Source: Acidobacteriota bacterium (GTDB lineage: Bacteria; Acidobacteriota; Terriglobia; UBA7540). From it: 64,000 nt of DNA. Below the pieces are notes generated by a model. It was not told the DNA's origin, ran no database searches, and saw only the letters and a program-made list of their open reading frames with translations. Location of the stretch: NCBI GenBank assembly GCA_004298155.1, contig SCRD01000018.1, positions 124,001-188,000 of the forward strand. The letters run 5' to 3'. This document shows, piece by piece, positions 4,212 through 56,123 of this stretch. The position numbers were made by a program, and so were the translations under genes. Position 1 is the first letter of the stretch. Each line of letters opens with the position of its first letter.

Positions 4212-4295
<84 letters not shown>

Positions 4296-4340: not shown

Positions 4341-5432
4341 TTACACCGTGCGCAGGGCCGATTCCAGCGTTTCCACCGCTTCTTTCCGCCGCCCGAGCCC
4401 TGTCTTGCTGTACACGTTCAAATTCACGTCCACCGAATGTCCAAGCTGGTCGGCGACGATTTTCGGATCGACGGCGAGCTCCCGCATGAGCGATGCGTGC
4501 GTGCGCCGCATCACCTGGAAGTTTACCCATTCGAGGCCAGCCGCTCGGAGCGTCGGTGCGATCCACCGCCGCCAGCAATTGTCCTTTGCCAGCGGCGTGC
4601 GCCTATTCTCCGAAGGGAATACCCAGGCGTCCGCCACCGGATCGCCGCACAACGAACGCCAGGCGGCAATCGCGGACTGCAGATCCCTGGAAAATGCCAC
4701 GCTCCGCCGCGACTGGTTGGTTTTTGGAGAATCGATCTTTCCCCGGTAAAGCCGTTGCTCGATCTCAATATGGTCAGATTCGATGTGCTTCCATTTGAGC
4801 GCGAAGATTTCTCCGGGGCGCATCCCCGCAATCGTTGCGAGCATGCAAACCAGGAGCTCCCTGGCATCGAGGACCGAAAAGAGCTTTTTAACATCCTGCC
4901 AGGTCATAACGCGGGCTATGCCGCGCACGGCATGTTGCGGCGTGAAAAGCAGCGTGGCCGGGTTCCGGTGTACGCAGTCTTCAATCACGGCCATCTCGAA
5001 GACCTGCCGGAGGTCCCACCGCAGGTGGTCCACCGTGCTGAACGACAGGCCCGCTGCCGCTTTGCGGTCAAGGAAATCCTGCAACTCATCCCGCGTGAAG
5101 GAGCGCAACGGGCGCCCGCCGAATTCCGAACTGAGGTGATGCCGGAGGCGGTCGAGGTTCGATGCGGCGGTCGAACTCTTCCACTTGCGGCGATAGAAAG
5201 GTAAATAGACCTGGTTCACGAAATCACCGAATTCCCAGTCTTGCGGCTGGCCCTCCTGAAGCGCATTGATCGGGGCAACGATTTCCGCGAGCTTCCGCTT
5301 CGCCTGGGCTTTGGTGATCTTGCTGACTTCTCCGACAATCTTGTTGCGGCGGTGCCCCGCTTCCCACCATTGGGCGATCCAATTTCCGCGGATTTCCTTG
5401 AGGCTTCCGCGCTGATACCGTTTACGACGCAT
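4341..5432 (-). CDS. int: Tyrosine recombinase integrase of element A
   Basis: A 363-residue phage-type integrase. Residues 1-60 form an AP2-like arm-binding start (RRKRYQRGSLKE...WIAQWWEAGHRR), then a SAM-like core-binding domain, then the catalytic domain with GMRPGEIFALKWKH (first Arg), QVMRRTHASLM (second Arg; the usual box II His appears as Gln), LGH, and the nucleophile Tyr in VNLNVYSK. It should join the circular element to tRNA-Gly. It is encoded at the very left end reading toward the tRNA, the normal place for such genes. The HTH gene upstream overlaps its start by 11 bases. A truncated relative is at 52273-52578. Confidence 0.93.
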   Translation of the reverse strand: MRRKRYQRGSLKEIRGNWIAQWWEAGHRRNKIVGEVSKITKAQAKRKLAEIVAPINALQEGQPQDWEFGDFVNQVYLPFYRRKWKSSTAASNLDRLRHHLSSEFGGRPLRSFTRDELQDFLDRKAAAGLSFSTVDHLRWDLRQVFEMAVIEDCVHRNPATLLFTPQHAVRGIARVMTWQDVKKLFSVLDARELLVCMLATIAGMRPGEIFALKWKHIESDHIEIEQRLYRGKIDSPKTNQSRRSVAFSRDLQSAIAAWRSLCGDPVADAWVFPSENRRTPLAKDNCWRRWIAPTLRAAGLEWVNFQVMRRTHASLMRELAVDPKIVADQLGHSVDVNLNVYSKTGLGRRKEAVETLESALRTV

Positions 5433-19335: not shown

Positions 19336-19992
19336 CTACCCCTCAATGCGCTCCGGGCATTCGCTCTTGGCGATGTCGCAGAATTTGCACTCGTTGCGGC
19401 TGGGAACTTTTATGGCGGCCGCCTCGGAGCCGATGACATCCAGGAAGTATTCGAAATTCTCGGCGAAAGATTCATCCACGGCTTCCGCGGGAATCTCGAC
19501 GCGGGAGTCGTTGTACACAACGCATCCTGTGGGCCGCATTCCTCGATAGGCAGGAATAGCTTGGGGAAGAAGGTGCATGTAGAGCATCACTTGGACTTCA
19601 TTCGACGATCTCGGTTGACCGGTTTTCACATCATAAATTTTTGGCGCACCGTTCCTGACCGAAATGAGGTCGGGTTTGCCGGCAACGATCATGCCCTGAG
19701 GCGACGCACAGCGGATTTGATTTTCCCCCTCGACAAACACCCGCTCCCCGAGCTTTTGCCGCTGCAGGCGAAGCTCCCGGAGCCTCCGGGTATGTTCAAT
19801 CTTCCATTTGGCTATGTCGAAATCGCTCGGAACCTTGGCGTAGTTTTCATGGTGCGCCTTGAACCAGCTCGCCCACTCGCACGCGTGCTCGCCGGCCATG
19901 ACCTTCGAAAGCCAGGTGATCCAAATGAAAACTTCGTCTCGCTTCTCTGCCATCGCAGCTTCTTTGCCGCCAACGCCATTGACAGCGGTCAT
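19336..19992 (-). CDS. Second Cas4-like PD-(D/E)XK nuclease
   Basis: 218 residues. GKPDLISVRNGAPKIYDVKTGQ gives the D...DVK catalytic set, then QVMLYMHLLP helix and a CKFCDIAKSEC cluster near the end, the Fe-S pattern of Cas4-type nucleases. It points toward the first nuclease gene (convergent) and shares a 58-base divergent promoter region with the XRE gene. The start may be ATG 19992 or ATG 19950. Two different nucleases of one class within 1.6 kb is unusual. Confidence 0.75.
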   Translation of the reverse strand: MTAVNGVGGKEAAMAEKRDEVFIWITWLSKVMAGEHACEWASWFKAHHENYAKVPSDFDIAKWKIEHTRRLRELRLQRQKLGERVFVEGENQIRCASPQGMIVAGKPDLISVRNGAPKIYDVKTGQPRSSNEVQVMLYMHLLPQAIPAYRGMRPTGCVVYNDSRVEIPAEAVDESFAENFEYFLDVIGSEAAAIKVPSRNECKFCDIAKSECPERIEG

Positions 19993-20005
19993 CGTTCGCT
20001 GATAC

Positions 20006-20023
20006 GCTGGTCAGCAGATTAGC
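20006..20023. promoter_or_regulatory. Candidate XRE operator between divergent genes
   Basis: GCTGGTC-AGCA-GATTAGC is an imperfect inverted repeat in the 58-base space between the divergent nuclease and XRE genes. Its right half and spacer are nearly the same as the perfect dyad at 21116. An AT-rich TATTATACT block follows and could hold the -10 of the XRE gene. Confidence 0.55.
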
Positions 20024-20050
20024 ATATTATACTACAGGGAAAGGAACCAC

Positions 20051-20368
20051 ATGAAAAAAACCGTTGGCCAGATAATCAGGGAAGCCCGCGTCAAGGCAGG
20101 GATGACCCAAAAAGAGCTGGCAGCGAGAATCATGCGGAAAGAGGAAGGCCGAGAGGAAGAGAAGCCGATAACGCCGCAATATCTGAACGACATCGAGCAT
20201 GACAGGCGGACCCCGCCCGAATACATTATTCGTCAGATTGCCAAGATACTGAACCTGGACGCAGACCATCTCGTGTTCTTGGCGGGGTCGGTGCCCCAAC
20301 ACCTGATTCCGGGGATTACCGAGGAGGCCGTCAAGGAGGCGGTCAGGCTTTTTCGAAAGGCCAAGTGA
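20051..20368 (+). CDS. XRE-family regulator
   Basis: 105 residues with a Cro/C1-type HTH: VGQIIREARVKAGMTQKELAARI...ITPQYLNDIEHDRR. The insert MRKEEGREEEK lengthens the turn. It is followed at 10 bases by an ImmA/IrrE metallopeptidase gene, the classic repressor-plus-protease pair that controls integrative elements. The operator-like repeats at 20006 and 21116 fit autoregulation and control of the following operon. Confidence 0.85.
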   Translation: MKKTVGQIIREARVKAGMTQKELAARIMRKEEGREEEKPITPQYLNDIEHDRRTPPEYIIRQIAKILNLDADHLVFLAGSVPQHLIPGITEEAVKEAVRLFRKAK

Positions 20369-20377
20369 GGGCGATCA

Positions 20378-21094
20378 ATGATTTGGGTACGTGATATAAC
20401 CGGCCGCTTTGCGGAACGGCCCCATTACGAGCCGGAAGAACTCGATAATGATTGCGAAGCCATCGTGGAAGATGTCCTTCTGCGCCGTCACGGAGAAGTG
20501 GTCTATCCCGTTCTGACGGATGATCTGTTCTTCATGCTGGAGCAGACCGCCTGCGTGGACCCGTATGCGGAATTCGACCCGGCCGAGGGCGAAATTTGGG
20601 GTGAGTCTGAATTTCGTCCGGGCGAGCAACCCAGAGTTTTTATCCGTCACGAACTTTCCGAAAATCCCCGTTACGAAAATCCCTTGCGCACCACGCTAAC
20701 CCACGAATTCAGCCATGTCCATTATCACGGCCCGCTTTTCGAGCTGGAGCGGTCTCGGGGGGAGTCATTCGAAGACGGTCGCAATAAAACCTGGGTGTGC
20801 AAGCGCGACCATGTTGAAGGGCATAGGAAGAGAGATTGGACGGAGTGGCAGGCCAGCTATTGCTCGGGCGCCCTGCTGATTCCGAAACGCGCCCTCCGAG
20901 AAGCCGTCAAGGAGTTCCTCGGATCCCACGAGCTCATTCCGGGTCAGGTGATGAGGGATACGCTGGACGAAATCGAACTCGTGTCGGAAGTGGTGAGGCG
21001 GTTTGCGGTCTCGCGCGAAGCGGCAGCCGTCCGGTTGAGGCAGCAGCGACACGTCGTCGAAGGAATGCCCTCCGGCGAAGCGTTTCGGGCTTGA
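20378..21094 (+). CDS. ImmA/IrrE-family metallopeptidase
   Basis: 238 residues with LTHEFSHVHYHG, the HExxH zinc-protease motif. The family cleaves cognate XRE repressors after a stress signal. The partner repressor is encoded immediately upstream. The C-terminal third (EVVRRFAVSREAAAVRLRQ) is a second helical domain usual for the family. Activation would derepress the genes downstream, here the ubiquitin-like operon; this link is inferred from the shared operator motif. Confidence 0.85.
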   Translation: MIWVRDITGRFAERPHYEPEELDNDCEAIVEDVLLRRHGEVVYPVLTDDLFFMLEQTACVDPYAEFDPAEGEIWGESEFRPGEQPRVFIRHELSENPRYENPLRTTLTHEFSHVHYHGPLFELERSRGESFEDGRNKTWVCKRDHVEGHRKRDWTEWQASYCSGALLIPKRALREAVKEFLGSHELIPGQVMRDTLDEIELVSEVVRRFAVSREAAAVRLRQQRHVVEGMPSGEAFRA

Positions 21095-21115
21095 CTTTTT
21101 TTTCGACCGATGTTA

Positions 21116-21135
21116 CGCTAATCAGCGGATTAGCG
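21116..21135. promoter_or_regulatory. Perfect dyad operator in front of the ubiquitin-like operon
   Basis: CGCTAATC-AGCG-GATTAGCG is a perfect 8-bp inverted repeat with a 4-bp spacer, 35 bases before the first small gene. A TTGACT box at 21091 with a TACGCT 17 bases downstream could be the promoter, overlapping the dyad. The same half-site occurs at 20017-20023, so the neighbouring XRE protein probably binds both. Confidence 0.6.
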
Positions 21136-21169
21136 GTTTAACGGATAAGAGATTGAAGAGGTAAGTTCG

Positions 21170-21304
21170 ATGAGCAATAGTCATGAAAACCAGGGTCAGA
21201 ACGATGGGCAGCGGCGCGACATTGACCACCGCCCGCCGGAAGTTCCACCGAAGGAACCGCCGGGCAAGGTCATAAAGCCGCGACCATCCCACGGCGGCAG
21301 GTAG
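21170..21304 (+). CDS. 44-residue disordered peptide ending HGGR
   Basis: A short gene with GAAGAGGTAAG before ATG 21170. The product is all polar, rich in Pro, Asn, Gln and Lys, with no predicted secondary structure by eye, and ends SHGGR. It is the first gene after the operator dyad and sits 22 bases before the E2-like gene. A small disordered protein with a C-terminal di-Gly recalls Pup- and ubiquitin-like modifiers, but no similarity is evident beyond that. It may also be a regulator or non-functional. Confidence 0.5.
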   Translation: MSNSHENQGQNDGQRRDIDHRPPEVPPKEPPGKVIKPRPSHGGR

Positions 21305-21326
21305 GAAGGGTTGCGAGGGTACCGCG

Positions 21327-21992
21327 ATGAGTTCTCGATTGGAGAAAAGCATCGAGGAGATGGGCATATTCTGCCCGAACCTTGTCTTCGAGGCCAAATC
21401 CCTCTCCGCGAATGGCGGAGGGGCCTGGAGCGGGCCGATCCAGCCCATTGCATCGCAGGAGGGACTTGGCCCGCTCCTTGACGACATAGCGCACAACCGT
21501 CCGATTTATTGTGCGCCTCGGGGCGAACTCAGGCATCTTGCTGCATGCCAGGGTTCCCATTGTCGTCACTCATGGATGGACCGGGTCGACGATTTGCGTG
21601 CGCCGTTCGAGGTGACGATTACGTACTCCGGCGGGCGGGACCACCCCAGATGTTGGGTTGTTTCGCCATCCATCTCTCCCGACAAGCGCCGACACATGTG
21701 GGGTGACGGCTCAATCTGCCCGTTTCTCGCCTCGGACGATACATGGGTGTGGGATCACGACACGGTAGCGGACTACGTTCCGCACATTTCAGTTTGGCTC
21801 GTAACTTGGCTCGTGTTTGACCGGACGGGCGAGTGGATCGTCGGAGAACACCTCGGGACGCCGCAGTACCATCTAGCGGTCATTAAACCCAATGACCAAT
21901 GCTGGTGCCGCTCCGGGCGCAAATACCGCAAGTGCCATATGCGCGAGGATCAAATCCAGGCTGTCCGCCAAGGATTTCGAGGTTTGCGGTGA
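21327..21992 (+). CDS. E2-like (UBC fold) protein with C-terminal SEC-C zinc motif
   Basis: 221 residues. Residues 90-175 read HMWGDGSICPFL...WVWDHDTVADYVPHISVWLVTWLVFDRTGEW. The His-x3-GDGS-I-C pattern followed by a Trp-rich helix resembles the E2 half of CBASS Cap2-type proteins, with Cys131 as the likely catalytic residue. CWCRSGRKYRKCHM (C192, C194, C203, H204) is a SEC-C zinc motif. The N-terminal half is unrecognised. It stands in front of the ubiquitin-like, E2-like and E1 genes on the same strand. The E2 assignment is by pattern only. Confidence 0.62.
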   Translation: MSSRLEKSIEEMGIFCPNLVFEAKSLSANGGGAWSGPIQPIASQEGLGPLLDDIAHNRPIYCAPRGELRHLAACQGSHCRHSWMDRVDDLRAPFEVTITYSGGRDHPRCWVVSPSISPDKRRHMWGDGSICPFLASDDTWVWDHDTVADYVPHISVWLVTWLVFDRTGEWIVGEHLGTPQYHLAVIKPNDQCWCRSGRKYRKCHMREDQIQAVRQGFRGLR

Positions 21993-22182
21993 AGACGAAA
22001 GGAGGTGGCAAGGCGGCAGCGCAAAGCGACGCTGCCGATAAACTTGCGTTCAGCACATAGACTTCCTGGGCGGAAATGGTAGGATGCGAGGCAAGCGGAA
22101 ACCCGCAGGATAACTCTCCCTCGTGGAAACTTTTTCGGCATGTCAGAAAAGGTCGTGACCTCACAACAAAGGGGAATAAAAC

Positions 22183-22431
22183 ATGAATCACAACACACAA
22201 GTCGAGATGTTCATCGACAAAAAGCGGTACGAATCGCCGAATCCGACGACCGGCGCGGCGTTATATCTTCTGGGCAAAGTCGATCCAAATACCTACGACC
22301 TTTATCTGGAGGTCCGCGGTAAAGGAGATGACGAATTGATCCCCAACGACAACACCGGCATTAGTCTGAAAAACGGTGATCATCTGTTCACTGTTCAGAA
22401 AAAGCTGAATCCCGGTGGCGAATGTCACTGA
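22183..22431 (+). CDS. Ubiquitin-like protein (multiubiquitin family, one domain)
   Basis: 82 residues of beta-grasp pattern: VEMFIDKKRYESPNPTTGAALYLLG...DLYLEVRGKGDDELIPNDNTGI...GDHLFTVQKKLNPGG. This fits the prokaryotic multiubiquitin family, which occurs as one to several copies; here there is one. It ends GGECH, so the di-Gly at 78-79 carries a three-residue tail that a JAB peptidase could remove. The end overlaps the next gene by 10 bases. It is likely the modifier of the conjugation operon. Confidence 0.8.
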   Translation: MNHNTQVEMFIDKKRYESPNPTTGAALYLLGKVDPNTYDLYLEVRGKGDDELIPNDNTGISLKNGDHLFTVQKKLNPGGECH

Positions 22432-22790
22432 TACCGGAAAGCGACATTGAGTTTCTGAAGGAGAAGGGGTACGACTACGAACTTCTTCAATCCGGGACGG
22501 AGGTCCACCTTGTTATCCACTGTTTTCCCTTCGAGCGTTATGTCCCGAAAGAGACTGATTTGCTCATCCGGCTTCTTTCGGGATATCCGCAGACCGCGGT
22601 GGACATGTTCTATACGATTCCCAACGTGAAGCTTCCCTCGGGCGCTTTCCCGCAGAATTGCAATCAACACCCGATGATCGGCGACAGGCCGTGGCAGCAA
22701 TGGTCGCGCCATTACAAATGGCGCTCGGGCATTGACAACCTTCGCACATATCTGGCCGCCGTGGCAGCCGAGGTGAGTAAGGGCATTTGA
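22422..22790 (+). CDS. Prokaryotic E2-like conjugating protein (Prok-E2_E type)
   Basis: 122 residues: VIHCFPFERYVPKETDLLIRLLSGYPQTAVDMFY...LPSGAFPQNCNQHP...WQQWSRHYKWRSGIDNLRTYLAAV. The order of strands and the W-RSGID-L helix match the E2-like family linked to multiubiquitin operons. Cysteines exist only at 34 and 80. Ser102 occupies the WRSGID position near the place of a catalytic residue, so transfer may not use a Cys thioester. It likely passes the ubiquitin-like protein from the E1 to a target. Confidence 0.75.
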   Translation: MSLIPESDIEFLKEKGYDYELLQSGTEVHLVIHCFPFERYVPKETDLLIRLLSGYPQTAVDMFYTIPNVKLPSGAFPQNCNQHPMIGDRPWQQWSRHYKWRSGIDNLRTYLAAVAAEVSKGI

Positions 22791-22794
22791 AAAC

Positions 22795-24183
22795 ATGCGG
22801 TTTACGCTTACTTTCCTTCAGGATGATTTCGAACGCCTCACGGGCCATCTTTTCCGTTCCGAAAATGAGGAGGCCGCCTACCTACTTTGCGGGATGTCAA
22901 CGGCTCCGAACGAAACCAGGCTGCTTGTGCGGGAAGTCATTCCAGTTCCGGCGACAGAGATCGACGAATCCTCGCAACTGCACATGCAGATTCAGCAACC
23001 GTCATTCCTGCGGCCTATCAAGGGCGCGGCCGAGCGCGGCCTCTGCTTTGTGTTCGCGCATTCGCATCCGCCAACGGTTCCCGAACACTCTCCCCAGGAC
23101 GACCGGACCGAGGAAAGCCTGTTCCGGACTGCCTACAACCGCATTCATAATGAGAACGCGATTCACGGCAGCATGGTATTTTCATCTAAGGAAAAACCTG
23201 TCGGTCGAATCTCGCTGCCGGACGGTACGAGGGTTCCCATGGAACGCATCCGCGTCGTCGGCAGACGGTTTCGATTCGCAATGGATGTCTCCAGGACCAA
23301 TATCCGGCTAAACTTCTTTTCCCGGCAAATTTTGGTATTCGGCGATGAACTCCAAAAGCTGCTGCGCCACTTGACGATTGGCATCGTCGGAATGGGCGGC
23401 ACCGGTTCGGCGGTGGCCGAACAACTCGTAAGGCTCGGCGTGGGGAGAATCATCGCCGCCGACGCCGAAACCCTGGAGGATTCGAATGTCACGCGGGTAT
23501 ATGGCTCCCATGTCCGTGACGTGGGTGCAGGCAAAGTGGAGCTTCTGCGGCGCCATGCGGAAGCCATCGGTCTGGGAACAATCGTTGAGGGAATCGCCGG
23601 AAACATTACGGACCAAGCCGTTGCCAGGCGGTTCAGAGAGTGCGATGTTATCTTCGGATGCGTTGACCGGGAGCGCGGACGCGCCATTCTGACGCAGTTT
23701 GCCCTGCAATATTTGGTGCCGGTGTTTGATCTCGGCGTAAAGGTGGAGTCCGAAGGCGGAGACGTCAAAGCGGTTGAGGGCCGGATCACGACCCTCTTGC
23801 CGGGCGCCGCCTGCCTTTTCTGCCGAGGACGCATCTCAGGAGACGTTCTTGCGGCCGAGACACTGGCGGAAGCCGATCCCGCCGAGTACGAGCGTCTTAG
23901 GCTGCAGGGTTACGTCCCGGAACTCCAGACTAACGCCCCTGCGGTCATCCCTTTTACCTCGTCTGTGGCCTCATTTGCCGTGACCGAATTGCTCCATCGG
24001 CTGAGTGGCTATATGGGCGAGGACCGGACGAGCACTGAACTTTTCCTGCTCTTTGACGACTCCAAGATCATCCGTAATTCGACGCCGCCGTTGCCTCAAT
24101 GCCGGTGCGCTGATCCCAAGAGCTGGGGGCAAGGCGATAGCGAACCGTTTCTCGGCCTCACCTGGCCCAGCGAAAACCCATGA
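22795..24183 (+). CDS. JAB metalloprotease-ThiF/E1 fusion
   Basis: 462 residues. Residues 1-130 form a JAB/JAMM domain: Glu25/26, H89-S-H91-x10-D102. Residues 180-400 form a ThiF/E1 adenylation domain with GIVGMGGTGSAVAE, AADAETLEDSNVTR (Asp223, Asn231, Arg234), Lys247, and zinc ligands CLFC (340, 343) and QCRC (436, 438). No Cys lies in the 344-435 stretch where the canonical E1 thioester Cys would be expected. It should trim the ubiquitin-like protein and activate its C-terminus. Only 4 bases separate it from the E2-like gene. Confidence 0.88.
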   Translation: MRFTLTFLQDDFERLTGHLFRSENEEAAYLLCGMSTAPNETRLLVREVIPVPATEIDESSQLHMQIQQPSFLRPIKGAAERGLCFVFAHSHPPTVPEHSPQDDRTEESLFRTAYNRIHNENAIHGSMVFSSKEKPVGRISLPDGTRVPMERIRVVGRRFRFAMDVSRTNIRLNFFSRQILVFGDELQKLLRHLTIGIVGMGGTGSAVAEQLVRLGVGRIIAADAETLEDSNVTRVYGSHVRDVGAGKVELLRRHAEAIGLGTIVEGIAGNITDQAVARRFRECDVIFGCVDRERGRAILTQFALQYLVPVFDLGVKVESEGGDVKAVEGRITTLLPGAACLFCRGRISGDVLAAETLAEADPAEYERLRLQGYVPELQTNAPAVIPFTSSVASFAVTELLHRLSGYMGEDRTSTELFLLFDDSKIIRNSTPPLPQCRCADPKSWGQGDSEPFLGLTWPSENP

Positions 24184-24548
24184 ACTGCCCATCTCTATCG
24201 AAGAGGTTCAGGTGGAGGGCACCCGCCAAGTACTTCGTGGGTATCAAGCGCGTGGAGCGGATATCTGAAGTTCCGGAAGGAATCGCGCGGGATTTCTATA
24301 TTGTGCATCGAAACGGCCGAGATATGTGGGCGGTTTTCCGGTGTCCATGCGAACGCGGCCATACATTGAATATCAACCTATCGAGGCAGAGACGGCCGTA
24401 TTGGAGGGGTAGGATCAAAAGGGGAGAAGTAAGTCTGTTTCCGTCAATATGGCTCAGGTATGAATGCAGGTCTCACTTCTGGGTTTTCAATAGTCGGATA
24501 TATTGGGCGAGTGATTTTGTTCCGGTAAAGGCAAAAGACGTCGCCTAA
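24180..24548 (+). CDS. DUF6527-like protein
   Basis: 122 residues: FRCPCERGHTLNINLSRQRRPYWRG...EVSLFPSIWLRYECRSHFWVFNSRIYWA. The Cys pair and CRSHFW motif with His may hold a metal. The family is often the last gene of multiubiquitin/JAB-E1 operons. It overlaps the E1 gene by 4 bases (ATGA). It could be a target-binding or ligase-like factor; the role is not established. Confidence 0.75.
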   Translation: MNCPSLSKRFRWRAPAKYFVGIKRVERISEVPEGIARDFYIVHRNGRDMWAVFRCPCERGHTLNINLSRQRRPYWRGRIKRGEVSLFPSIWLRYECRSHFWVFNSRIYWASDFVPVKAKDVA

Positions 24549-24569
24549 ATCAACCTTTCCTAAGCACTT

Positions 24570-24892
24570 TCATAGCTGACATTTTTCTTCTTTTTCCCCA
24601 AACATGCTTTCCACCGCTTGCGCTCTCCCACGTACAACATCTCTATGGATCAGCAGAAACCCCACGACCAGAAGGCCCATCGCCAGCATTTGCGTCGCGA
24701 GATAGAAGGTGGATGATCGGATGAGCAGCAAGGCAAAAGCGGGGAATACAGGGTGACCTTTTCGATGTAGAAGGCGTATCGTGCGAGGGAAACGAGGACG
24801 GACCCCATGAGCGCGACCAGCCCCCGCCGGGCAGGCGCGGTTGTGAGGCAATCCTTTTTCCGGTACCCGGCCCAAAGAGCCGAGAGGTTCAT
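24570..24892 (-). pseudogene. Frameshifted inner-membrane protein remnant
   Basis: Two overlapping minus-strand frames each carry half of what reads as one membrane protein. One frame holds MNLSALWAGYRKKDCL...SLARYAFYIEKVTLY; the other continues HPVFPAFALLLIRSSTFYLATQMLAMGLLVVGFLL to a charged end. The switch lies near 24750. Each half alone has an implausible remainder. A single frameshift mutation (or sequencing error) explains it. Confidence 0.5.
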
Positions 24893-25148
24893 GAGCTGTA
24901 CGGGAACGAGGAAGAAGGCCGCGGAGGCGAGAAGCCCAAAGCGGCTCTCGACCGCCCCGGCGCCCCAAAGCGATCAACTGCCGTGGCTCAAACGGCCCTT
25001 GTAGTTTGGCTTAGGTGCCCGAATCGTAGGGGAATATTGAAGCCGGGGCTGCCAGAATCTCTTACCGGATTTCATGAAGTAGGTTCGAATGGAGTTCAGA
25101 CGCCCGCGCGCAACTAACGGCAGTTCGGCGCCGGCTGATGTCCAACTC

Positions 25149-25174
25149 AAAAGGCCCCCGTGAGGGGGCCTTTT
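25149..25174. terminator. Bidirectional terminator after the S-layer-like gene
   Basis: AAAAGGCCCCC-GTGA-GGGGGCCTTTT is a perfect 11-bp stem, with A and T tracts on both sides, so it can end transcription from either strand. It lies 49 bases past the stop of the large minus-strand gene. Confidence 0.85.
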
Positions 25175-25222
25175 GCTTTCGTCTCCGTCACAAGCGGAGA
25201 GGAAAACGCTAACCGATCGGCG

Positions 25223-28200
25223 TTACGAGCTGTACGAGACCGTTACGATCTGCAGCGGTACGATGGTAACTGGCAAGCTGATAGTGCTGCCAGTAGCCTG
25301 GCTGTTGTCGTAGTAGGTCATGTCGCCCGTTCCGTTGATCACCGCGTTGATGCTCACCGGGTTCTGGCCGGTTGCAGTCGCGAAGTCAGCGCTGTTGAAC
25401 CGAAGGGTGAACGTTTGCGACCCTCCGCCCGTTACGACCACCGCCGAATTGGTGGTGCTCGTCGGGAACGTCCAGGTAAGGGAGCACGGGCTCGCAGAAC
25501 ACGTGCCAGTCACCGACGCGCCCAATCCACTGTTAGCCGTCGACGTAGTCACGTCAACGCTGTTGTAGAGAAGGGCGAAGTCAGACACCGATGTGGAGGC
25601 GGTGATGGCGCTGCCGCTGAAGGTAAGCTTCAACGACCTCAGCACCGCAGAGCCGCCACTCGCAGCCGTGACCGTGATGGTCGCAGCGTTGTCGACCGAC
25701 TTCCTGACGTTACCCGTCGCTGGATCGATAGCGACCGCGCTCGGAGTAAGCGTCGTTTGGAGGACCGTCATCACATTGCCGGTCGGAGTGCCGCTCACGA
25801 CCGCCGCCTTTTGAGAGCCGGCGGTCAGTGCCGTGACATCCGACGTCGCCGCAAAGCCGAAGGTGGATGTCGTGTTGTCCGCAACACCACCCGAGCTGTA
25901 CGGAGGCACGTCACCCTTCAAGGTCAACACCAGCGTTCTGTTCTGCGGAACCTGCGGAGCCGTTGAGAAGTGGAACGTGTACGTCCAGCCGGCAGAAGAC
26001 GTCGCCGCCACGCCCGTACCCAGGTTCGTAGACCCGTTGTAAAGGGTCACGTTGCCGAAGTCCTGCGCGGACGAGCTCGTGTTCTGCGTTACCTTGAGGT
26101 CCGTGATGTTCACGTTCGCCACGTTGGAGGTTTCCGTGAAGCGGAAGGCCGCCAATGTGTTCCCCGTGGTATTTGCTACGAGCTGGCTCGCTGCCGGAGC
26201 GGAGGAGTCAAGCCCCACCGTCACGTTAGCGCCAGCGCTCGAAGCCGTAACGCTCTGGCCGGTCACTGCTCCGCTCGGGCAAGAGACCGAGTTGTACGAG
26301 ACAACGCTCGTGCCAGTGCAAGCGGTAACTTCGGACGCCGTCTGGGCCGTGGTCGTCGCACCGGATAGGAGGTCAGCGTAAACATCCACATTCGTGGTGC
26401 CGCCGGCCGGGATCGTAAACGGAGAGCCGGAGAAGGTGTACGTGCTCTGGTCCGTCACGACGGGCTGCGTCGTGCCGAATTGTGTGCCGCCGATCATGAG
26501 CTTCAGGTTCGCAATGTCATTGGAACCCGAGGCGCTCGGATAGACCTTCACGCTCACCGTGTTCATCTGTACGCCGCTCGCGGACGAAGCCGAGAACGAG
26601 TAAGAACCGATCTTCACGTTCGACGTGCCAGGCTGGATGGTCTGGTTGCCGTAGGACGTATTCTCGGTGACCGTGAGCAAACCGGTCTGCAGCGTGAGAG
26701 CGCTGCCGTTTGTCGCGGCCGACGAGTTCGTCTGGCTCGACGTCAAACCCTGGAGGTTGCTCGTGTCGCCGTTAAGCTTCGCCTGGACCGTCGCAAACGT
26801 GGCGCCGGACTGGATGTCCGCTTTGAGCGAGAGGACGCGGGTCGTGTTCGCCGGAACAATGTAGTTAATCGGCGAAGCAGACGTGCCGAAGCAGTCCTTG
26901 TAGGTTCCCGTTGAGGTCGAGTACGCAGCCGTCTTGTTCGTTGCGCAGTCATTCGTCGACGGCGGATTATTGATCGTCGAGCCAACCTGACCGCCCGCAT
27001 CGTCAACCAACGCGATGTTCTGTACCGCGTCGGAGAGCGTGGCTTTCAATGTCGGGTTGCTCGTCGAGGTCGTGAAGTCGAGCTCGAAGTCGAGGAACTT
27101 GACCTTGACCGGCTCACCGGCCGCGTAGATGTCGAACTTCGCGAGCGTGACGCCCGACTGGCCGACCGCAATGTTGCCGGTCGGAGTCGCGGAGTCAGCC
27201 GTAACCGTGATCGTGCCTTTGGCGATGGACACATCCGTGCCCGAACCGCCATTGGCCGTCACCGAGATCGGCACATTGTACTGCGAGTCGACCGCGTACA
27301 CGTCATAGGAGTTCAAGATCTCGAAAGCGAAATCTTTCGAGGGAGAACCCATGACATCAGCGTAGACCTGCAGGTTATTGCTGCCGGTGTTGATCGACGC
27401 CGGCGAGGACGAGAGGTCGAAGTAAGCGACCCCGTTCGAGCCAACCGTGGCGAGCGTCGGGCCGACCTGCGTACCGTTGATGTTCAGCTTCACGTTCCGG
27501 ATGTCGGCATCGTTCGCCGAGCCAATGACCTCAAACTTGAGGCCCTTGAGGTAGACCAGGCTGTTCGAACCGGTAAGCTGCCAAGCGCTCACGATGTTGT
27601 TCTGAGTGCCCGCCGTCACCTGCGTGCCGACTGGCGTAGAAGTTACTGTGAGCTGGGCCAAGCTCGGGTTCGAGACCGTGGTTACGGTGAAGATGCTGCC
27701 GTTCAACGGGAACGAACCGGATGCAGTCACCGAGTTGTTGCTCGAGTCAACCGCCGTCACGTCCGAAGCCGCATTCATGGCAAAGCTCACCGTGTTGCCG
27801 GCTTGAAGACCCGATGAAGGATCAATTGCCAGCTGGAGCTCTTCCGTCTGCCCCGCAGGAACCGTAAGGTTCATGCTGGAGAAGTCGATCACGCCGTTGT
27901 TAAGCGACGTGTACTGGTAGAGCACCTGGCCGTTCTGGATCAGATACGCGCCAGAGATCGAGCTATCCGAAAGGACGCCCGTCTTGTGGAATTTGAGGTC
28001 CGTTACCGTCACCGCGCCGGAGTTCGACGCCGTGAGGTTCACCGAAAGGACCGGCACGCGGGCCGCTGTTCCACCCGTCGAACCGCTAGCCGTGGTGATG
28101 AGCGAACCGGCCGACGGGTTGTTGGACGCCAAGGAAACCGCAAGACCCGTCGTCGGAGGCGTTACCGTCGTCGACGTGCTCGAGCCCGTGCCAGTTCCCG

Positions 28201-34105: not shown

Positions 34106-36541
34106 TTAATTCGGGATATCCTCGTCCGTTGGCCCCGGCCCAGGTCGCGCGAGCTTGCTCACCTTGCGCATGTTTTCCAAAGCGTCGATGAACTCCGGAT
34201 CGATTTCCAACGCTTTGTCAAAACACTTCATAGCCTCGTCGAACCGACTCACCTCGGCCAAAGCTTTGCCCCTGTAAACCCAAACATGATGGTCTTGCGG
34301 ATCGATCTCCAGGATCTCCGTGTAGCAGCCGATGGCTTCGTCATGTCGACCTAGAGCATCCAGAGCCATTCCGGTATTTTTCCAGCAAATGACATCTTGT
34401 GGGTTCAATTCCAAGCCTCTAGTTGAGGATTCTATGGCCTCGCCGTAGCGACCGAGGATTCCGAGCAGCTGACCCTTGTGGCCCCAAGCACCAGTAAATG
34501 ACGGCTCGATTTCGAGGGTTCGGTTACAACATGCGAGGGCCTCCTCGAAGCGCCCGAGAAATCCGAGTGCGATGGCCTTGCTATCCCAGGCAGATGCGGA
34601 TAACGGATCAATTCCAAGGACTTGGCTATAGCATCTGACGGCCTCCTCGTAGCGTCCCAAATTGTGGAGGGCATCACCCATGTTGAGCCACGCAGCCCCA
34701 TATCGCGGATCGATCTCCAGGGCCTTGGCAAAGCACGTTACGGCGTCATCGTACTTACCTGGCTGAAACAGCGTCATGCCCTGATCGGCCCAAGCAGCCG
34801 CTCCGGGTTCGAACGTGACGAGAGCCATCTCGCGATCGACGCGTTCCGCAGCAATCCTGTTCCGATCGTCTCGGCACTGAGGATCGATTTCTGCATCGGT
34901 CCTGTTCCAATCGTCTCGGATCTGAGGATCGATTTCTGCGGCCTTCGCTAGGCAGGTTTTGGCCTCCTCGAGTCGGTCTAGCTCATTCAGGGCCGCGGCC
35001 CGAGCCGTCCACGCGCTGGCATTGTGCGGGTCGATCCGAACGGAATTGTCAAAGCAACCAAGCGCCTCCTCGTAGCGCTCGAGTTCGCAAAGGATGTTAC
35101 CCTCGTTTTTCCAACTTATCGGGCTCTGGCTATCAATCTCTAACGCATTTGCATAGAAGGCGAGGGCCTCTTGGTAGCGCCCGAGCTTTTTGAGGACATT
35201 CCCCTTGTTGTTCCATGCCGCAGCGCACTTCGGATCAGTTCTAAGCGCTTCGTCATAACAAGTCATGGCTTCTTGAATGCGACCTAACGCAACATGCGCG
35301 ATTCCTTTGCTATTCCAAGCGCCGACATCGTGAGGATCAAGTTCGATTGCTTTGTCGAAACAAACGATGGCATCTTCGTGTCGCCCAAGCTCGTGGAGCG
35401 ACATGCCTTTGATGGTCCAAAAGCCTGAAATACGATCTGCGTCTTTAGGGAGTTCCACGGCGCGCCCCGTCCGCCGGAAAAGGATTTGCTCCAGTTCGAG
35501 CCGCAACTCGTTGAAGCTCTCATAACGCCGTGAAGGTTCCGATGCAAGACAACGCTCGATGGCCATTTGCATTGGTCCTCCCGAAGGAGGTGCTTGCCCT
35601 TTGATCTGTTGCTCAAGTACTCTCTGTAAATAGTCATCCATGTTTGCAGCCTTGCTATAAGGTACCTGGAACGGTGGAGCGTGACTGCCCTTTGCCATTT
35701 GCCACAATACCAGTCCAAAGCTGTAAATATCGCTTCGGACACCAGCAGTTCCCCCAAGAAGTACCTCTGGTGCAATGTAACCCGGCGTCCCGCAAATCCT
35801 CTTGCCCTCGGTTACGAGCAAACTCAACCCGGCGCCGCCTTTACCGTTGTCAGTGGCTACCGGACCAGTCTCCTCTTTCCAGGCCATCTCTGCTGCTAGA
35901 GCCAACCCAAAGTCGCTGATTTTGAGATTCCCGTCCGGAGCGATCAAGATGTTCGTCGGTTTGATATCCCTGTGGCACCTGATGCCTCGCTGAAAAGCGT
36001 GTTCCATTCCATAACAGAACTGTATCGCCCACTTGAGAGAATCAACTGAATCGATTGGCCCACTCGTACAGGCGAGATGGTCTGCTAAACTCACTCGTCC
36101 GTTCGCGTCGGGGGCTATATAGTCCATATTCACAAACAAACGCCGCGAAAACTCGTGCACGACTCGGGCAGCCACAATGAACGGATGATCCTCGAGATTG
36201 ACCCAGAGGAGGGCCTCTTTCTTAAAAGCTTTCCTGGACGCAGGATGCGGAAGAAGATCTGAACGAATTGTCTTGAGTGCGCAAAGCCATTTGCCCTCCA
36301 AGAAGTGCGCTAAGTACACTTCTCCGAAGCCGCCTCTGCCAACCAGCTTGTGTATCGTGTATTTGTATTCGCCACCAATGACGTCACCATCTTTCAACGC
36401 TGCAAATGGTCTCTGGTTGTCGTTAGTCCATCCGGCGGCCCTTAGTGGAGACATCGATTCCCCGCTGGGTTCGGCAGCGTCTGCCTTCGCTGATTCACCG
36501 AAAATGCGCTTGAGGAGTTCCTCTGCGTCTTCGTTGTGCAT
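34106..36541 (-). CDS. Ser/Thr protein kinase with TPR array
   Basis: 811 residues. Residues 60-355 form a Hanks-type kinase: GRGGFGEVY, Lys90, HRDIKPTN (Asp192), DFG (Asp210), APE-like region. Residues 380-800 are about a dozen TPR repeats of the form AW-N-G-AL-LGR-EEA. The catalytic residues are all present. No membrane segment is seen. Together with the next-but-oppositely placed metabolism-like gene it resembles a signalling or defence pair carried by mobile elements. It would phosphorylate a partner bound by the TPR face. Confidence 0.88.
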   Translation of the reverse strand: MHNEDAEELLKRIFGESAKADAAEPSGESMSPLRAAGWTNDNQRPFAALKDGDVIGGEYKYTIHKLVGRGGFGEVYLAHFLEGKWLCALKTIRSDLLPHPASRKAFKKEALLWVNLEDHPFIVAARVVHEFSRRLFVNMDYIAPDANGRVSLADHLACTSGPIDSVDSLKWAIQFCYGMEHAFQRGIRCHRDIKPTNILIAPDGNLKISDFGLALAAEMAWKEETGPVATDNGKGGAGLSLLVTEGKRICGTPGYIAPEVLLGGTAGVRSDIYSFGLVLWQMAKGSHAPPFQVPYSKAANMDDYLQRVLEQQIKGQAPPSGGPMQMAIERCLASEPSRRYESFNELRLELEQILFRRTGRAVELPKDADRISGFWTIKGMSLHELGRHEDAIVCFDKAIELDPHDVGAWNSKGIAHVALGRIQEAMTCYDEALRTDPKCAAAWNNKGNVLKKLGRYQEALAFYANALEIDSQSPISWKNEGNILCELERYEEALGCFDNSVRIDPHNASAWTARAAALNELDRLEEAKTCLAKAAEIDPQIRDDWNRTDAEIDPQCRDDRNRIAAERVDREMALVTFEPGAAAWADQGMTLFQPGKYDDAVTCFAKALEIDPRYGAAWLNMGDALHNLGRYEEAVRCYSQVLGIDPLSASAWDSKAIALGFLGRFEEALACCNRTLEIEPSFTGAWGHKGQLLGILGRYGEAIESSTRGLELNPQDVICWKNTGMALDALGRHDEAIGCYTEILEIDPQDHHVWVYRGKALAEVSRFDEAMKCFDKALEIDPEFIDALENMRKVSKLARPGPGPTDEDIPN

Positions 36542-42092: not shown

Positions 42093-44972
42093 ATGAGCAC
42101 TGCATACCATGCGAAGTATTTCGCCCACGAACTAACTAAGCGATGTGCCTCAAACAACCCGGAAAAGATTGCCGCCTCGCTTGCCGACGCACAGGTTGAC
42201 CTGAATCCCCACCAAGTAGAGGCGGCTCTGTTTGCATTCCGATCGCCGCTGTCGAGAGGGGCTGTACTCGCCGACGAAGTCGGTTTGGGCAAGACAATCG
42301 AGGCTGGCATCCTTCTCTCTCAAAGGTGGGCGGAGCGGAAACGCCACCTGCTGGTGATCGTTCCGGCAAGCCTGCGAAAGCAATGGAATCAGGAGCTGGC
42401 AGACAAGTTCTTTCTCCCCTCGTTTATTCTCGAAACAAGAAGACTCAATGAAGAGATCAAGCAAGGGAATCTTAACCCCTTTGATCGGAATGGAGTGGTT
42501 ATCTGCTCGTACCAATTCGCCCGGTCCAAGGAAGCGTATATCCGGCAGACTCCGTGGGATTTGATCATTATTGACGAAGCTCACCGGCTGCGGAATGTCT
42601 ACAAACCCTCAAATAAGATCGGCAACGCCATTAAGGCGGCGGCTGCTCCCTATCCGAAGGTCCTCCTGACAGCCACACCACTGCAGAACAGCATCCTTGA
42701 ACTTTATGGCCTTGTGAGTGTCATTGATGACTTTACATTCGGCGATCTGAGAAGTTTCAAATCTCAATTCTCCAACCTGAGCACGGAGCGTGATTTTGAA
42801 GCGCTCAGGCAGCGCCTCAAGCCCATCTGCCAAAGAACTTTACGGCGGCAGGTAAAGGAACACATCAAGTTTACAAACCGGATTGCCTTGGTTGAGGAAT
42901 TTGTTCCCAGCGATGCCGAACAGAAGCTTTACCACCTCGTTTCGGACTACCTGCAACGAGAGAATCTCTTCGCCCTTCCGCGAAGCCAGCGCAAGCTGAT
43001 GACGCTGATTCTCCGGCGATTACTGGCCTCCTCAACCTTCGCCATCGCTGGAACACTCGAGGGCCTTGGGAACAAGCTACAGGTTATTTCCAATAACCAG
43101 GAGCAGGCGGCTCAAGTTCCGCAGGAAGTGATGGAGAGCTTCGAGGTATTCGATGAAATGGCGGATGAATGGGCGGAGGAAGACGAAGAAGAAATCGACG
43201 CCGCAAAAGAGGAAAAGAGCTATAGCCCGGATGAACTCCGCCAGTTGCGTGAAGAGCTGGCATCATTACGCCAATTCGCTATGCTTGCCAAGTCGATACT
43301 CAAGAATTCGAAGGGCGAAAGGCTCCTCACGGCGCTCAAGCGTGGGTTCGCCGAAACCAGGAAAAAGGGTGGGAGCGAAAAGGCGATTATCTTTACCGAA
43401 TCAACCCGAACGCAGGAGTATCTCCGTTCGATCCTGGAAGAAACCGCCTATAAGGGCAAAATTGTTCTCTTCAACGGGTCTAACAATGACGCTAAATCCA
43501 AGGAAATTTATAAAAACTGGCTAGAAAAGCACGCCGGCACAGACCGGATTACGGGGTCTCGGACGGCGGATCTGCGTGCTGCCCTGGTCGATTACTTCCG
43601 CGACGAAGCCAGCATCATGATCGCTACCGAGGCCGCCGCCGAAGGCATCAACCTTCAGTTCTGTTCGCTGGTCATCAATTACGACCTTCCCTGGAACCCC
43701 CAGCGCATTGAACAACGCATCGGGCGCTGCCACCGTTACGGGCAGCGCCATGACGTTGTGGTAGTGAATTTCCTGAACAAGAAGAATGCGGCCGATCAGC
43801 GCGTCTATCAGCTTTTAGACGAAAAGTTCAAGCTCTTTAGCGGAGTGTTCGGAGCAAGTGACGAGGTGCTGGGAAGCATTGAATCCGGCGTTGATTTCGA
43901 AAAGCGCATTGCGGATATCTATCAAGAATGCCGAACGGAGGAACAAATCCAGTTCAATTTTGATCAGTTGCAGCTGGAGATGGAGCAACAGATCGATGAA
44001 CGGATAAAGATTACGCGACAGAAACTCCTCGAAAACTTTGACGAAGAGGTCCACGAGAAACTTAGGACCAGTTTGCGGGAAAGCAACGAGGTCCTGGGCA
44101 AGTATGATTCCTGGCTATGGCGACTGACCCGTTACTATCTTGCTCCGTACGCGGAATTCAATGATGGCGGCAACGCATTCACGCTAATTAAGAATCCTTT
44201 CCCCGAGGAGCACATTCACCCCGGTCCATATCGCAGCGGCAGAAACGTTGAAGATGCGAACCTTTACAGGCTTGGCCATCCCCTGGCCCAGCGTCTGATA
44301 TCTGAATGCAAGAAACTCGATCTCCCCCTCAAGGATCTCACTTTCCGATACTCCGACTCGGCGAAACGGATTTCGATTGTTGAGCCTCTTGTGGGTCAGC
44401 GTGGAATTCTTCGAGTTCTCTTGTTGACTGTAACGGCCTTCGAGAGTGAAGATTACCTCCTGCTTGCTGGTTTGTGTGATGACGGCGCCGCTTTGGATGT
44501 CGATCAGTGCCAGCGACTCTTTTCGTTAGAAGCTGAAGAAACAGACCCATCTGAAGTCCCCGATGGGCAGCAGTCGGTTAAATTAAAAGAGCAATTAGAA
44601 GGCCAACGGGATGCCATCCTTGCGGAGCTCGGACAAAGGAACTCGGCTTATTTTGAGGGCGAACTTGAAAAGCTGGAAAAATGGGCAGATGACCTGAAAT
44701 CGGGGCTTGAGCTTGATTTGAAGGAATTGGATGCAGAAATCAAAACGATGAAGCGTAGTGCGAAGTTGGAAGTTGCACTGGAGGCCAAACTTGAACTCCA
44801 TCGCAAGATTAAAGATCTGGAAAGCAACCGTTCTAAGAAGAGACGTGCCTTATTCGAGGCGCAAGATGAGATTGACAACCGCAAAGAGAACTTAATTTCC
44901 GACGTGGAAACGCGGTTGCGGCAGAGTGTGACAACCGAAGATCTCTTTACAATCAAATGGCGCGTTGAATAA
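42093..44972 (+). CDS. SNF2/RapA-like helicase
   Basis: 959 residues. SNF2 motifs: NPHQVEAALFAFRSPL, LADEVGLGKTIEAG (Walker A), IIIDEAHRLRN (DEAH box), LLTATPLQN, then ATEAAAEGINLQFCSLVINYDLPWNPQRIEQRIGRCHRYGQ. The last 200 residues are a long coiled coil with acidic and basic runs. Such motors remodel protein-DNA complexes and often occur in defence islands (DISARM DrmD is one relative). It is the first gene of a tight five-gene operon that ends at 52014. Confidence 0.9.
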   Translation: MSTAYHAKYFAHELTKRCASNNPEKIAASLADAQVDLNPHQVEAALFAFRSPLSRGAVLADEVGLGKTIEAGILLSQRWAERKRHLLVIVPASLRKQWNQELADKFFLPSFILETRRLNEEIKQGNLNPFDRNGVVICSYQFARSKEAYIRQTPWDLIIIDEAHRLRNVYKPSNKIGNAIKAAAAPYPKVLLTATPLQNSILELYGLVSVIDDFTFGDLRSFKSQFSNLSTERDFEALRQRLKPICQRTLRRQVKEHIKFTNRIALVEEFVPSDAEQKLYHLVSDYLQRENLFALPRSQRKLMTLILRRLLASSTFAIAGTLEGLGNKLQVISNNQEQAAQVPQEVMESFEVFDEMADEWAEEDEEEIDAAKEEKSYSPDELRQLREELASLRQFAMLAKSILKNSKGERLLTALKRGFAETRKKGGSEKAIIFTESTRTQEYLRSILEETAYKGKIVLFNGSNNDAKSKEIYKNWLEKHAGTDRITGSRTADLRAALVDYFRDEASIMIATEAAAEGINLQFCSLVINYDLPWNPQRIEQRIGRCHRYGQRHDVVVVNFLNKKNAADQRVYQLLDEKFKLFSGVFGASDEVLGSIESGVDFEKRIADIYQECRTEEQIQFNFDQLQLEMEQQIDERIKITRQKLLENFDEEVHEKLRTSLRESNEVLGKYDSWLWRLTRYYLAPYAEFNDGGNAFTLIKNPFPEEHIHPGPYRSGRNVEDANLYRLGHPLAQRLISECKKLDLPLKDLTFRYSDSAKRISIVEPLVGQRGILRVLLLTVTAFESEDYLLLAGLCDDGAALDVDQCQRLFSLEAEETDPSEVPDGQQSVKLKEQLEGQRDAILAELGQRNSAYFEGELEKLEKWADDLKSGLELDLKELDAEIKTMKRSAKLEVALEAKLELHRKIKDLESNRSKKRRALFEAQDEIDNRKENLISDVETRLRQSVTTEDLFTIKWRVE

Positions 44973-44982
44973 GCAGGGAAAC

Positions 44983-45189
44983 ATGAATCATCAAAATGAA
45001 GGCTTTAAAGCACCGGATGAGGAGCTCGCAAACCGGATCACCGATGCAATTGGAAAGACCCAGATCGTCAGCAAGGATAAGCTCGACAGCATCAGGGAAG
45101 GCCTTTGCCGAGGGAACCTTTCGAGTGCCGATTGGAAACTGCTGGTTGAATTGGGATCTGCCAAAGTCGGAGGCCCAGATCACAAATGA
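44983..45189 (+). CDS. Small linker protein of the helicase-restriction operon
   Basis: 68 residues from ATG 44983 (an earlier ATG at 44965 overlaps the helicase). It is acidic and helical (DEELANRITDAIGKTQIVSKDKLDSIREGL). Its stop overlaps the start of the ATPase gene by 4 bases (ATGA), so it is coupled to it. It may be a small subunit of the complex; no family recognised. Confidence 0.6.
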   Translation: MNHQNEGFKAPDEELANRITDAIGKTQIVSKDKLDSIREGLCRGNLSSADWKLLVELGSAKVGGPDHK

Positions 45190-47555: not shown

Positions 47556-47557
47556 CC

Positions 47558-52158: not shown

Positions 52159-52212
52159 TTCCCAAGCTGGACGTCGCGGGTTCGATCCCCGTCCCCCGCT
52201 CCATCTTTTCAA
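52159..52212 (+). repeat. Attachment site between elements A and B
   Basis: Exact copy of the 54-bp tRNA-Gly 3' end (4242-4295). It lies after a conserved approach (GACCCTATG...TCAATCTAGGGTC, about 52120-52155) that is also present before 56077. It is the right end of A and the left end of B. Confidence 0.9.
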
Positions 52213-56076: not shown

Positions 56077-56123
56077 TTCCCAAGCTGGACGTCGCGGGTT
56101 CGATCCCCGTCCCCCGCTCCATC
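56077..56123 (+). repeat. Attachment site attR, right end of element B
   Basis: A 47-bp copy of the tRNA-Gly 3' end; one mismatch (C for T) breaks the match just past CCATC. Host sequence begins here. Confidence 0.9.

Follow-up and report, generated by a model that had tools for sequence, protein, structure and literature searches.

A short-peptide gene and a cysteine-type E2 gene between a CapH/CapP-like regulator and a Bub operon in an Acidobacteriota genome: a possible separate conjugation module

We analyzed a 64-kb stretch of DNA (the window), part of contig SCRD01000018.1 (C18) in the 5.2-Mb genome of an Acidobacteriota bacterium, with emphasis on a gene cluster in which a CapH/CapP-like regulator pair, a short proline-rich peptide gene, a cysteine-type E2 gene and a Bub ubiquitin-like conjugation operon follow one another on the same strand. 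The peptide gene had not been part of the finding in an earlier note on this DNA. The components of the cluster, in window coordinates, are as follows.

20006..20023 (+): operator O1, GCTGGTCAGCAGATTAGC; overlaps TACGCT at 20003, with TTGAC at 19979
20051..20368 (+): CapH-like XRE repressor, 105 amino acids; Pfam HTH_3, 7e-11; PADLOC HTH_VI/capH, capH 0.002; phmmer 4e-19 to the Rhizobium phaseoli homologue
20378..21094 (+): CapP-like ImmA/M78 metallopeptidase, 238 amino acids; Peptidase_M78, 8e-7; PADLOC capP, 9e-8; phmmer 2e-43 to the R. phaseoli homologue
21117..21134 (+): operator O2, perfect dyad GCTAATC-AGCG-GATTAGC; overlaps TACGCT at 21114, with TTGAC at 21091
21170..21304 (+): gene for a 44-amino-acid proline-rich peptide, MSNSHENQGQNDGQRRDIDHRPPEVPPKEPPGKVIKPRPSHGGR, between O2 and the E2 gene, with a homologue upstream of the E2 gene of genome G109
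21327..21992 (+): Cys-type E2 with a UBC fold, catalytic Cys131, His123 and a C-terminal SEC-C motif at approximately residues 189-206 (PADLOC, Pfam, alignment and predicted structure)
22183..22431 (+): BubA, ubiquitin-like protein, 82 amino acids, C-terminus NPGGECH; Multi_ubiq, 9e-4; phmmer 4e-26 to the BubA of locus L048
22422..22790 (+): BubB, Prok-E2_E E2-like protein with invariant S95; Prok-E2_E, 1e-26; Citrobacter BubB (9eae), 2e-11
22795..24183 (+): BubCD, JAB peptidase fused to a ThiF-type E1; ThiF, 1e-31; Prok-JAB; Citrobacter BubCD (9ea4), 2e-34
24180..24548 (+): BubE-type DUF6527 protein with invariant S89 and H99; DUF6527, 5e-18

The 221-amino-acid product of the gene at 21327 was recognized by the PADLOC models for E2 proteins of the cyclic oligonucleotide-based antiphage signaling system (CBASS; best match, 8.5e-12) and by the Pfam SEC-C family (1.6e-8). 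Residues C131 and H123 were unchanged across an alignment of 18 E2s, bearing out the earlier proposal of an E2 with Cys131 joined to a SEC-C motif. Structure prediction, which the earlier note had named as a check, gave a UBC fold: the AlphaFold2 model, built from a 10-sequence alignment (predicted local distance difference test 82, predicted template modeling score 0.75), had as its best structural match the Serratia marcescens E2 of the CdnG-E2 complex (8yjy; Z 10.2, 131 residues, 2.8 Å), with the TSG101 UEV, UFC1 and Cap2 (7to3, Z 7.2) ranking below. A profile made from 10 of these E2s retrieved the same Serratia chain at 4e-17; a Foldseek search of the PDB with the model returned no match at E ≤ 0.001. 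Of the former description as Cap2-type, the fold stands and the Cap2 label does not, the protein consisting of E2 and SEC-C only, without an E1 domain, and lying structurally closer to the Serratia E2. Neither a CD-NTase nor an E1 is fused to or adjoins the gene. Searches of the host genome with queries for SMODS, for DncV-like proteins and for the CD-NTase of L064 (a CBASS locus described below) detected no CD-NTase; an intact CBASS at the locus was therefore rejected.

The sole close relative found for this E2, with 63% identity, is encoded in an Acidobacteria metagenome-assembled genome (G109). No copy of the E2 appeared in plasmids, phages or viral contigs, a scan of genome contigs gave only the G109 contig already known, and the 12 genomes searched from the family of G109 contained no additional copy. 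The other CD-NTase of G109 belongs to a separate, phospholipase-type CBASS and its tail is unrelated. An orphan E2-SEC-C gene of the same subfamily was also observed in genome G246 (L094 5707-6381), with no recognizable CD-NTase or peptide.

The peptide gene has its own start codon, with a Shine-Dalgarno-like GAGG 9 nucleotides (nt) before the ATG, and ends 22 nt upstream of the E2 gene. Its homologue in G109, a gene for 45-52 amino acids (L002 1489-1647, minus strand), lies directly upstream of the homologous E2, and farther on comes an XRE/ImmA pair of a different kind, divergently oriented. Within the 24-codon core running from DHRPP to PSHG, 5 codons are identical between the two genomes, 15 carry synonymous changes and 4 specify replacements, so that 20 of the 24 residues agree. 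Because 15 of the 24 core codons differ synonymously and all 4 replacements are conservative, the core is under purifying selection at the protein level, and it is more conserved than the E2 itself. No further copy was found in plasmids or, by DNA pattern, in viral contigs.

The C-termini of the two peptides, VIKPRPSHGGR here and VIRPRPSHGSH in G109, were compared with the tails of CD-NTases. The nearest CBASS E2 is that of L064, an E2-SEC-C protein from the same phylum with 29% identity over the protein; at that locus, a CD-NTase ending in VPRPTFGSDE is encoded directly upstream of the E2, i.e., in the slot occupied here by the peptide gene. An ungapped C-terminal match of the peptides to the L064 tail was better than that of shuffled peptides (p = 0.001 and 0.0005). 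The CD-NTases accompanying Serratia-like E2s have endings like KNTFYGE, QNSFFGEE and KNTWYGN—an aromatic residue and a glycine followed by one to three residues—and an ending of the form aromatic/His-Gly-x(1-4) is common to Serratia-type CD-NTase tails. The regular expressions for these tails were composed with the peptides already in view and are not independent evidence; the fair test is a position matrix derived from CD-NTase tails alone, and such a matrix picks up held-out CD-NTase tails strongly and the peptides only weakly.

We further compared the locus with 23 other Bub operons. Five of these come from same-phylum genomes; the other 18 are plasmid-borne, in Alphaproteobacteria, Gammaproteobacteria, Cyanobacteria and Planctomycetes. 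None of the 23 carries a Cys-E2 between the controller and the Bub genes; a single one of these loci has an E2 of this family, which belongs to a neighboring CBASS. A Prok-E2_E protein (BubB) was not detected in the genome of G109. Because the peptide and the E2 are absent at that position in the 23 operons, and the genome of their relative has no detectable BubB, they form a module separate from Bub, placed here between the CapP-like gene and bubA, and the Cys-E2 was rejected as a regular Bub component. By the same observations, the previous suggestion that two E2s with mixed chemistry serve one pathway found no support.

Other occupants of this region were also noted. Where the peptide and E2 genes stand here, an R. 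phaseoli plasmid has a gene for a YegP-like DUF2188 protein (L076 4100-4327), flanked by CapP and BubA; the slot between regulator and Bub is thus variable. Genome G259 carries DUF6791-ThiF and DUF6527 proteins directly beside a type II-short CBASS with an E2-SEC-C protein (L038 6926-11246), a further case of Bub-like genes adjoining a CBASS E2 gene. In a Nostoc plasmid (L081 4021-10184), the nucleotidyltransferase, E2 and SAVED genes of a type II-short CBASS come immediately after a Bub operon.

The genes from 22183 to 24548 read, by their sequences, as an ordinary Bub operon, with solved structures of Citrobacter BubB and BubCD among the matches, and the set described before—a multiubiquitin-family protein, a Prok-E2_E protein, a JAB-E1 fusion and DUF6527—was recovered with the same order and coordinates. 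The Multi_ubiq match of BubA falls below the Pfam cut-off, and the gene occupies the position expected of bubA. Trimming of BubA is likely because the protein ends in NPGGECH here, while in its relatives PG or EG is at or close to the C-terminus. The JAMM residues of BubCD (E25, H89, H91, S99 and D102) are intact and the motif is invariant in the alignment. Cysteines of BubCD lie at positions 32, 84, 283, 289, 340, 343, 436 and 438, in agreement with the former statement that the E1 has none within residues 344-435; C340/C343 and C436/C438 look like a putative zinc site. Across the 24 aligned sequences, no Cys, Ser or Thr is invariant in the E1 region expected to hold the catalytic cysteine: in the crossover region, 19 sequences have Thr and 5 have Asn at the position of T388, 21 of 24 have Thr or Ser at that of S389, and a conserved nucleophile there was rejected on account of this variation. 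As for BubB, the conserved position assigned earlier to Ser102 proved to be mistaken, this residue being Pro in 16 of 24 proteins; the one invariant serine (24/24) is S95 of the motif WQRWSRH, and S102 was dismissed as the nucleophile. The ester-based transfer that the earlier note connects with a diverged type of such operons is reportedly that of Ye et al. 2026, a study cited in PMC13373217. A gap of 190 nt with no listed gene separates the E2 gene from bubA, leaving a single transcript uncertain.

The regulatory pair has as its closest relatives in phmmer searches the pair that adjoins the Bub operon of R. phaseoli. Both dyads contain the 20-bp element ACGCTRRTCAGCRGATTAGC, at 20004 and 21115, and in the 64 kb this element occurs only at these two sites and as the reverse reading of the near-palindromic second one, with 0.03 sites expected by chance; the matching dyads reported before at 20006 and 21116 are therefore real. 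At both operators, the element overlaps a TACGCT hexamer that lies 23-24 nt past TTGAC, and the same promoter-operator element is found 3' of the R. phaseoli ImmA gene, as TTGACT..TTACGCTAATTAGCGGATCGGCGG. An XRE repressor gene followed by an M78 peptidase gene, with one operator ahead of the regulator and another ahead of the effector operon, is the arrangement of a CapH+CapP controller and, together with the PADLOC and Pfam matches and the R. phaseoli homologues, supports the view already put forward that the XRE/ImmA pair governs the locus. Such control of Bub operons is already known: CapH+CapP or CapW adjoin 219 of 544 Bub operons, and DNA-damage control by these regulators has been published, with no demonstration so far of phage protection by Bub (PMC13373217).

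Drawing from these observations, the account we tentatively favor is that of two separate conjugation modules under one CapH/CapP switch, an ordinary Bub operon and the peptide with a CBASS-derived Cys E2 bearing a SEC-C motif; in the second module, the peptide would be the tag conjugated by the E2, its tail standing in for a CD-NTase. Our best guess for the peptide itself is that it represents a free-standing CD-NTase tail and conjugation substrate of the E2. In type II CBASS, it is the CD-NTase that serves as the ubiquitin-like tag, by way of a C-terminal Gly or Ala, and CD-NTases are the accepted precedent for a modifier lacking a beta-grasp fold (PMC10449767). Under this scheme, DNA damage or phage single-stranded DNA would activate CapP, activated CapP would cleave CapH, and the promoters at O1 and O2 would open for the production of the peptide, the E2 and the Bub proteins. 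BubCD might then trim and adenylate BubA, which would pass via S95 of BubB to its targets and would probably be removed by BubE. In parallel, the E2 could recognize the CD-NTase-like tail of the peptide, trim it after SHG, load the trimmed peptide on C131 and attach it to lysines—the peptide, as a free tag, thereby doing the job of the whole CD-NTase in type II-short CBASS. The Serratia E2 alone is reported to trim the end of its cyclase, to take that end on its cysteine and to transfer it to lysine (Yan et al. 2024).

Several observations weigh against a conjugated peptide. The tail-only matrix gives the peptides scores of 4.4 and 3.9, as compared with at least 14 for true CD-NTase tails, two held-out ones included, and 25-31 of 1375 other C-termini reach the scores of the peptides. 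The peptide is known from two copies only; these differ in their last two residues and neither ends in Gly. The region upstream of the third member of the E2 family, in G246, has neither a CD-NTase nor a recognizable peptide. Finally, there is no dedicated E1, and the precedent for transfer by an E2 alone in CBASS is the one reported for Serratia.

Part of this evidence would suit a different role, in which the peptide is a bound regulator or decoy—a proline-rich mimic of a CD-NTase tail that sits in the active site and restrains this E2 or that of an incoming CBASS. The tail resemblance fits a pseudo-substrate equally as a substrate, the variable last two residues and the missing terminal Gly are consistent with a ligand that is not conjugated, and in its proline-rich, extended character the peptide is similar to the PTAP-type ligands of UEV folds, which also match the E2 model. 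Against this, the partner of a decoy would have no need of a catalytic cysteine, whereas this E2 has kept C131 and H123; we regard this role as possible but rather unlikely. The adjacency of the Cys-E2 gene to the Bub genes, on the same strand and downstream of the same operator O2, could instead point to a second E2 of the Bub pathway that takes BubA from BubCD in a mixed thioester/oxyester chemistry; its absence at this position in the other operons, the close relative in a genome with no detectable Bub E2, and the presence of an intact BubB with S95 make this improbable. We give similarly little credence to the E2 as what remains of a type II-short CBASS after loss of the cyclase and the effector, with the upstream gene as the surviving cyclase end or as an unrelated peptide. 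In its favor, the relatives of the E2 are CBASS genes, and the family member in G246 has no CD-NTase; against it, both genomes, whose E2s are 63% identical, keep the two genes intact, the changes in the peptide are mostly synonymous, and the peptide has its own start and Shine-Dalgarno-like sequence. Least credible is a stress-induced two-gene unit (e.g., toxin-antitoxin-like) that uses the E2 fold outside conjugation, for which the XRE/ImmA pair beside it in both genomes—of differing family and orientation—speaks, and against which stands the invariance of C131 and H123 with active CBASS E2s.

The two-module account can be placed against known systems. The Bub (bacterial ubiquitination-like) operons of Ye et al. 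2026, with the Citrobacter BubA-BubB-BubCD, share the gene order BubA, BubB, fused BubCD, DUF6527, the invariant BubB serine and a controller of the CapH/CapP type, whereas here a module of peptide, Cys-E2 and SEC-C is inserted between the controller and the Bub genes. With type II-short CBASS (the S. marcescens CdnG-E2, PDB 8yjy/8hsb, and L064), the locus has in common the E2 fold, the catalytic Cys and the His, a SEC-C tail (present in many members) and a directly upstream gene, the C-terminal tail of which looks similar in the pairwise comparison with L064; it differs in having no detected CD-NTase, no cyclic-nucleotide effector and a 44-amino-acid peptide in the CD-NTase slot. The E2 half of Cap2 (the E1-E2 of type II CBASS) has the same fold, but the E2 at 21327 has no E1 domain and no JAB partner. 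In operons with metallo-beta-lactamase-fold proteins (Runella plasmid, L087), an E2-SEC-C likewise occurs without a CD-NTase; its partners are those proteins and not a short peptide. The peptide resembles Pup in being a short, probably disordered candidate tag; pupylation uses the PafA ligase, not an E2, and no sequence relation between the two peptides is apparent.

Bub operons governed by CapH/CapP were known before. What is new in the peptide-E2 module is the way in which known parts are arranged, and its function can be tested and may be important. The most specific form of our proposal is a two-gene tagging system in which an unstructured 44-residue peptide, a free CD-NTase-type tail, is activated and attached by a single Cys E2 with no dedicated E1, uncoupled from cyclic-nucleotide signaling and co-induced with Bub; we consider it doubtful. 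If true, few genetically encoded protein modifiers would be smaller than this peptide, which would also lack a beta-grasp fold, and the conjugation system would be a minimal, E2-only one. If the tail works alone as a 44-residue peptide, tag and cyclase would be separable, and the contribution of tagging itself to phage defense would become testable. The locus would also have two unrelated chemistries, serine-based and cysteine-based, under one damage-induced switch.

The wider setting of the locus is mobile, as delimited by the following features.

4242..4295 (+): attL-like repeat at the 3' end of tRNA-Gly (tRNA 4212-4286); perfect 54-bp direct repeat with 52159-52212
4341-5432 (-): tyrosine-recombinase-like gene adjoining the tRNA-Gly/attL-like repeat
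52159..52212 (+): attR-like repeat, the other end of the integrative island of approximately 48 kb

Because of the 54-bp tRNA-Gly direct repeats and the adjoining tyrosine-recombinase-like gene, the Bub/E2 locus is placed within an integrative island of approximately 48 kb. A third, 47-bp copy of the repeat at 56077-56123 suggests a second element, nested or older. No Rfam family was found across 19900-25300. Next to operator O1 and divergent from the CapH gene, a Cas4/RecB-type PD-(D/E)XK nuclease is encoded at 19336-19992 (minus strand). An 811-amino-acid kinase-like protein with a TPR-like stretch (34109-36541, minus strand) matches the PADLOC mad6 and PD-T4-6 models. Moreover, the island carries a second defense cluster at 42093-52014, with a SNF2-type helicase (best PADLOC match DrmD, 2e-209), an AAA ATPase (LmuB-like), a type III methyltransferase and a type III restriction enzyme in a row.

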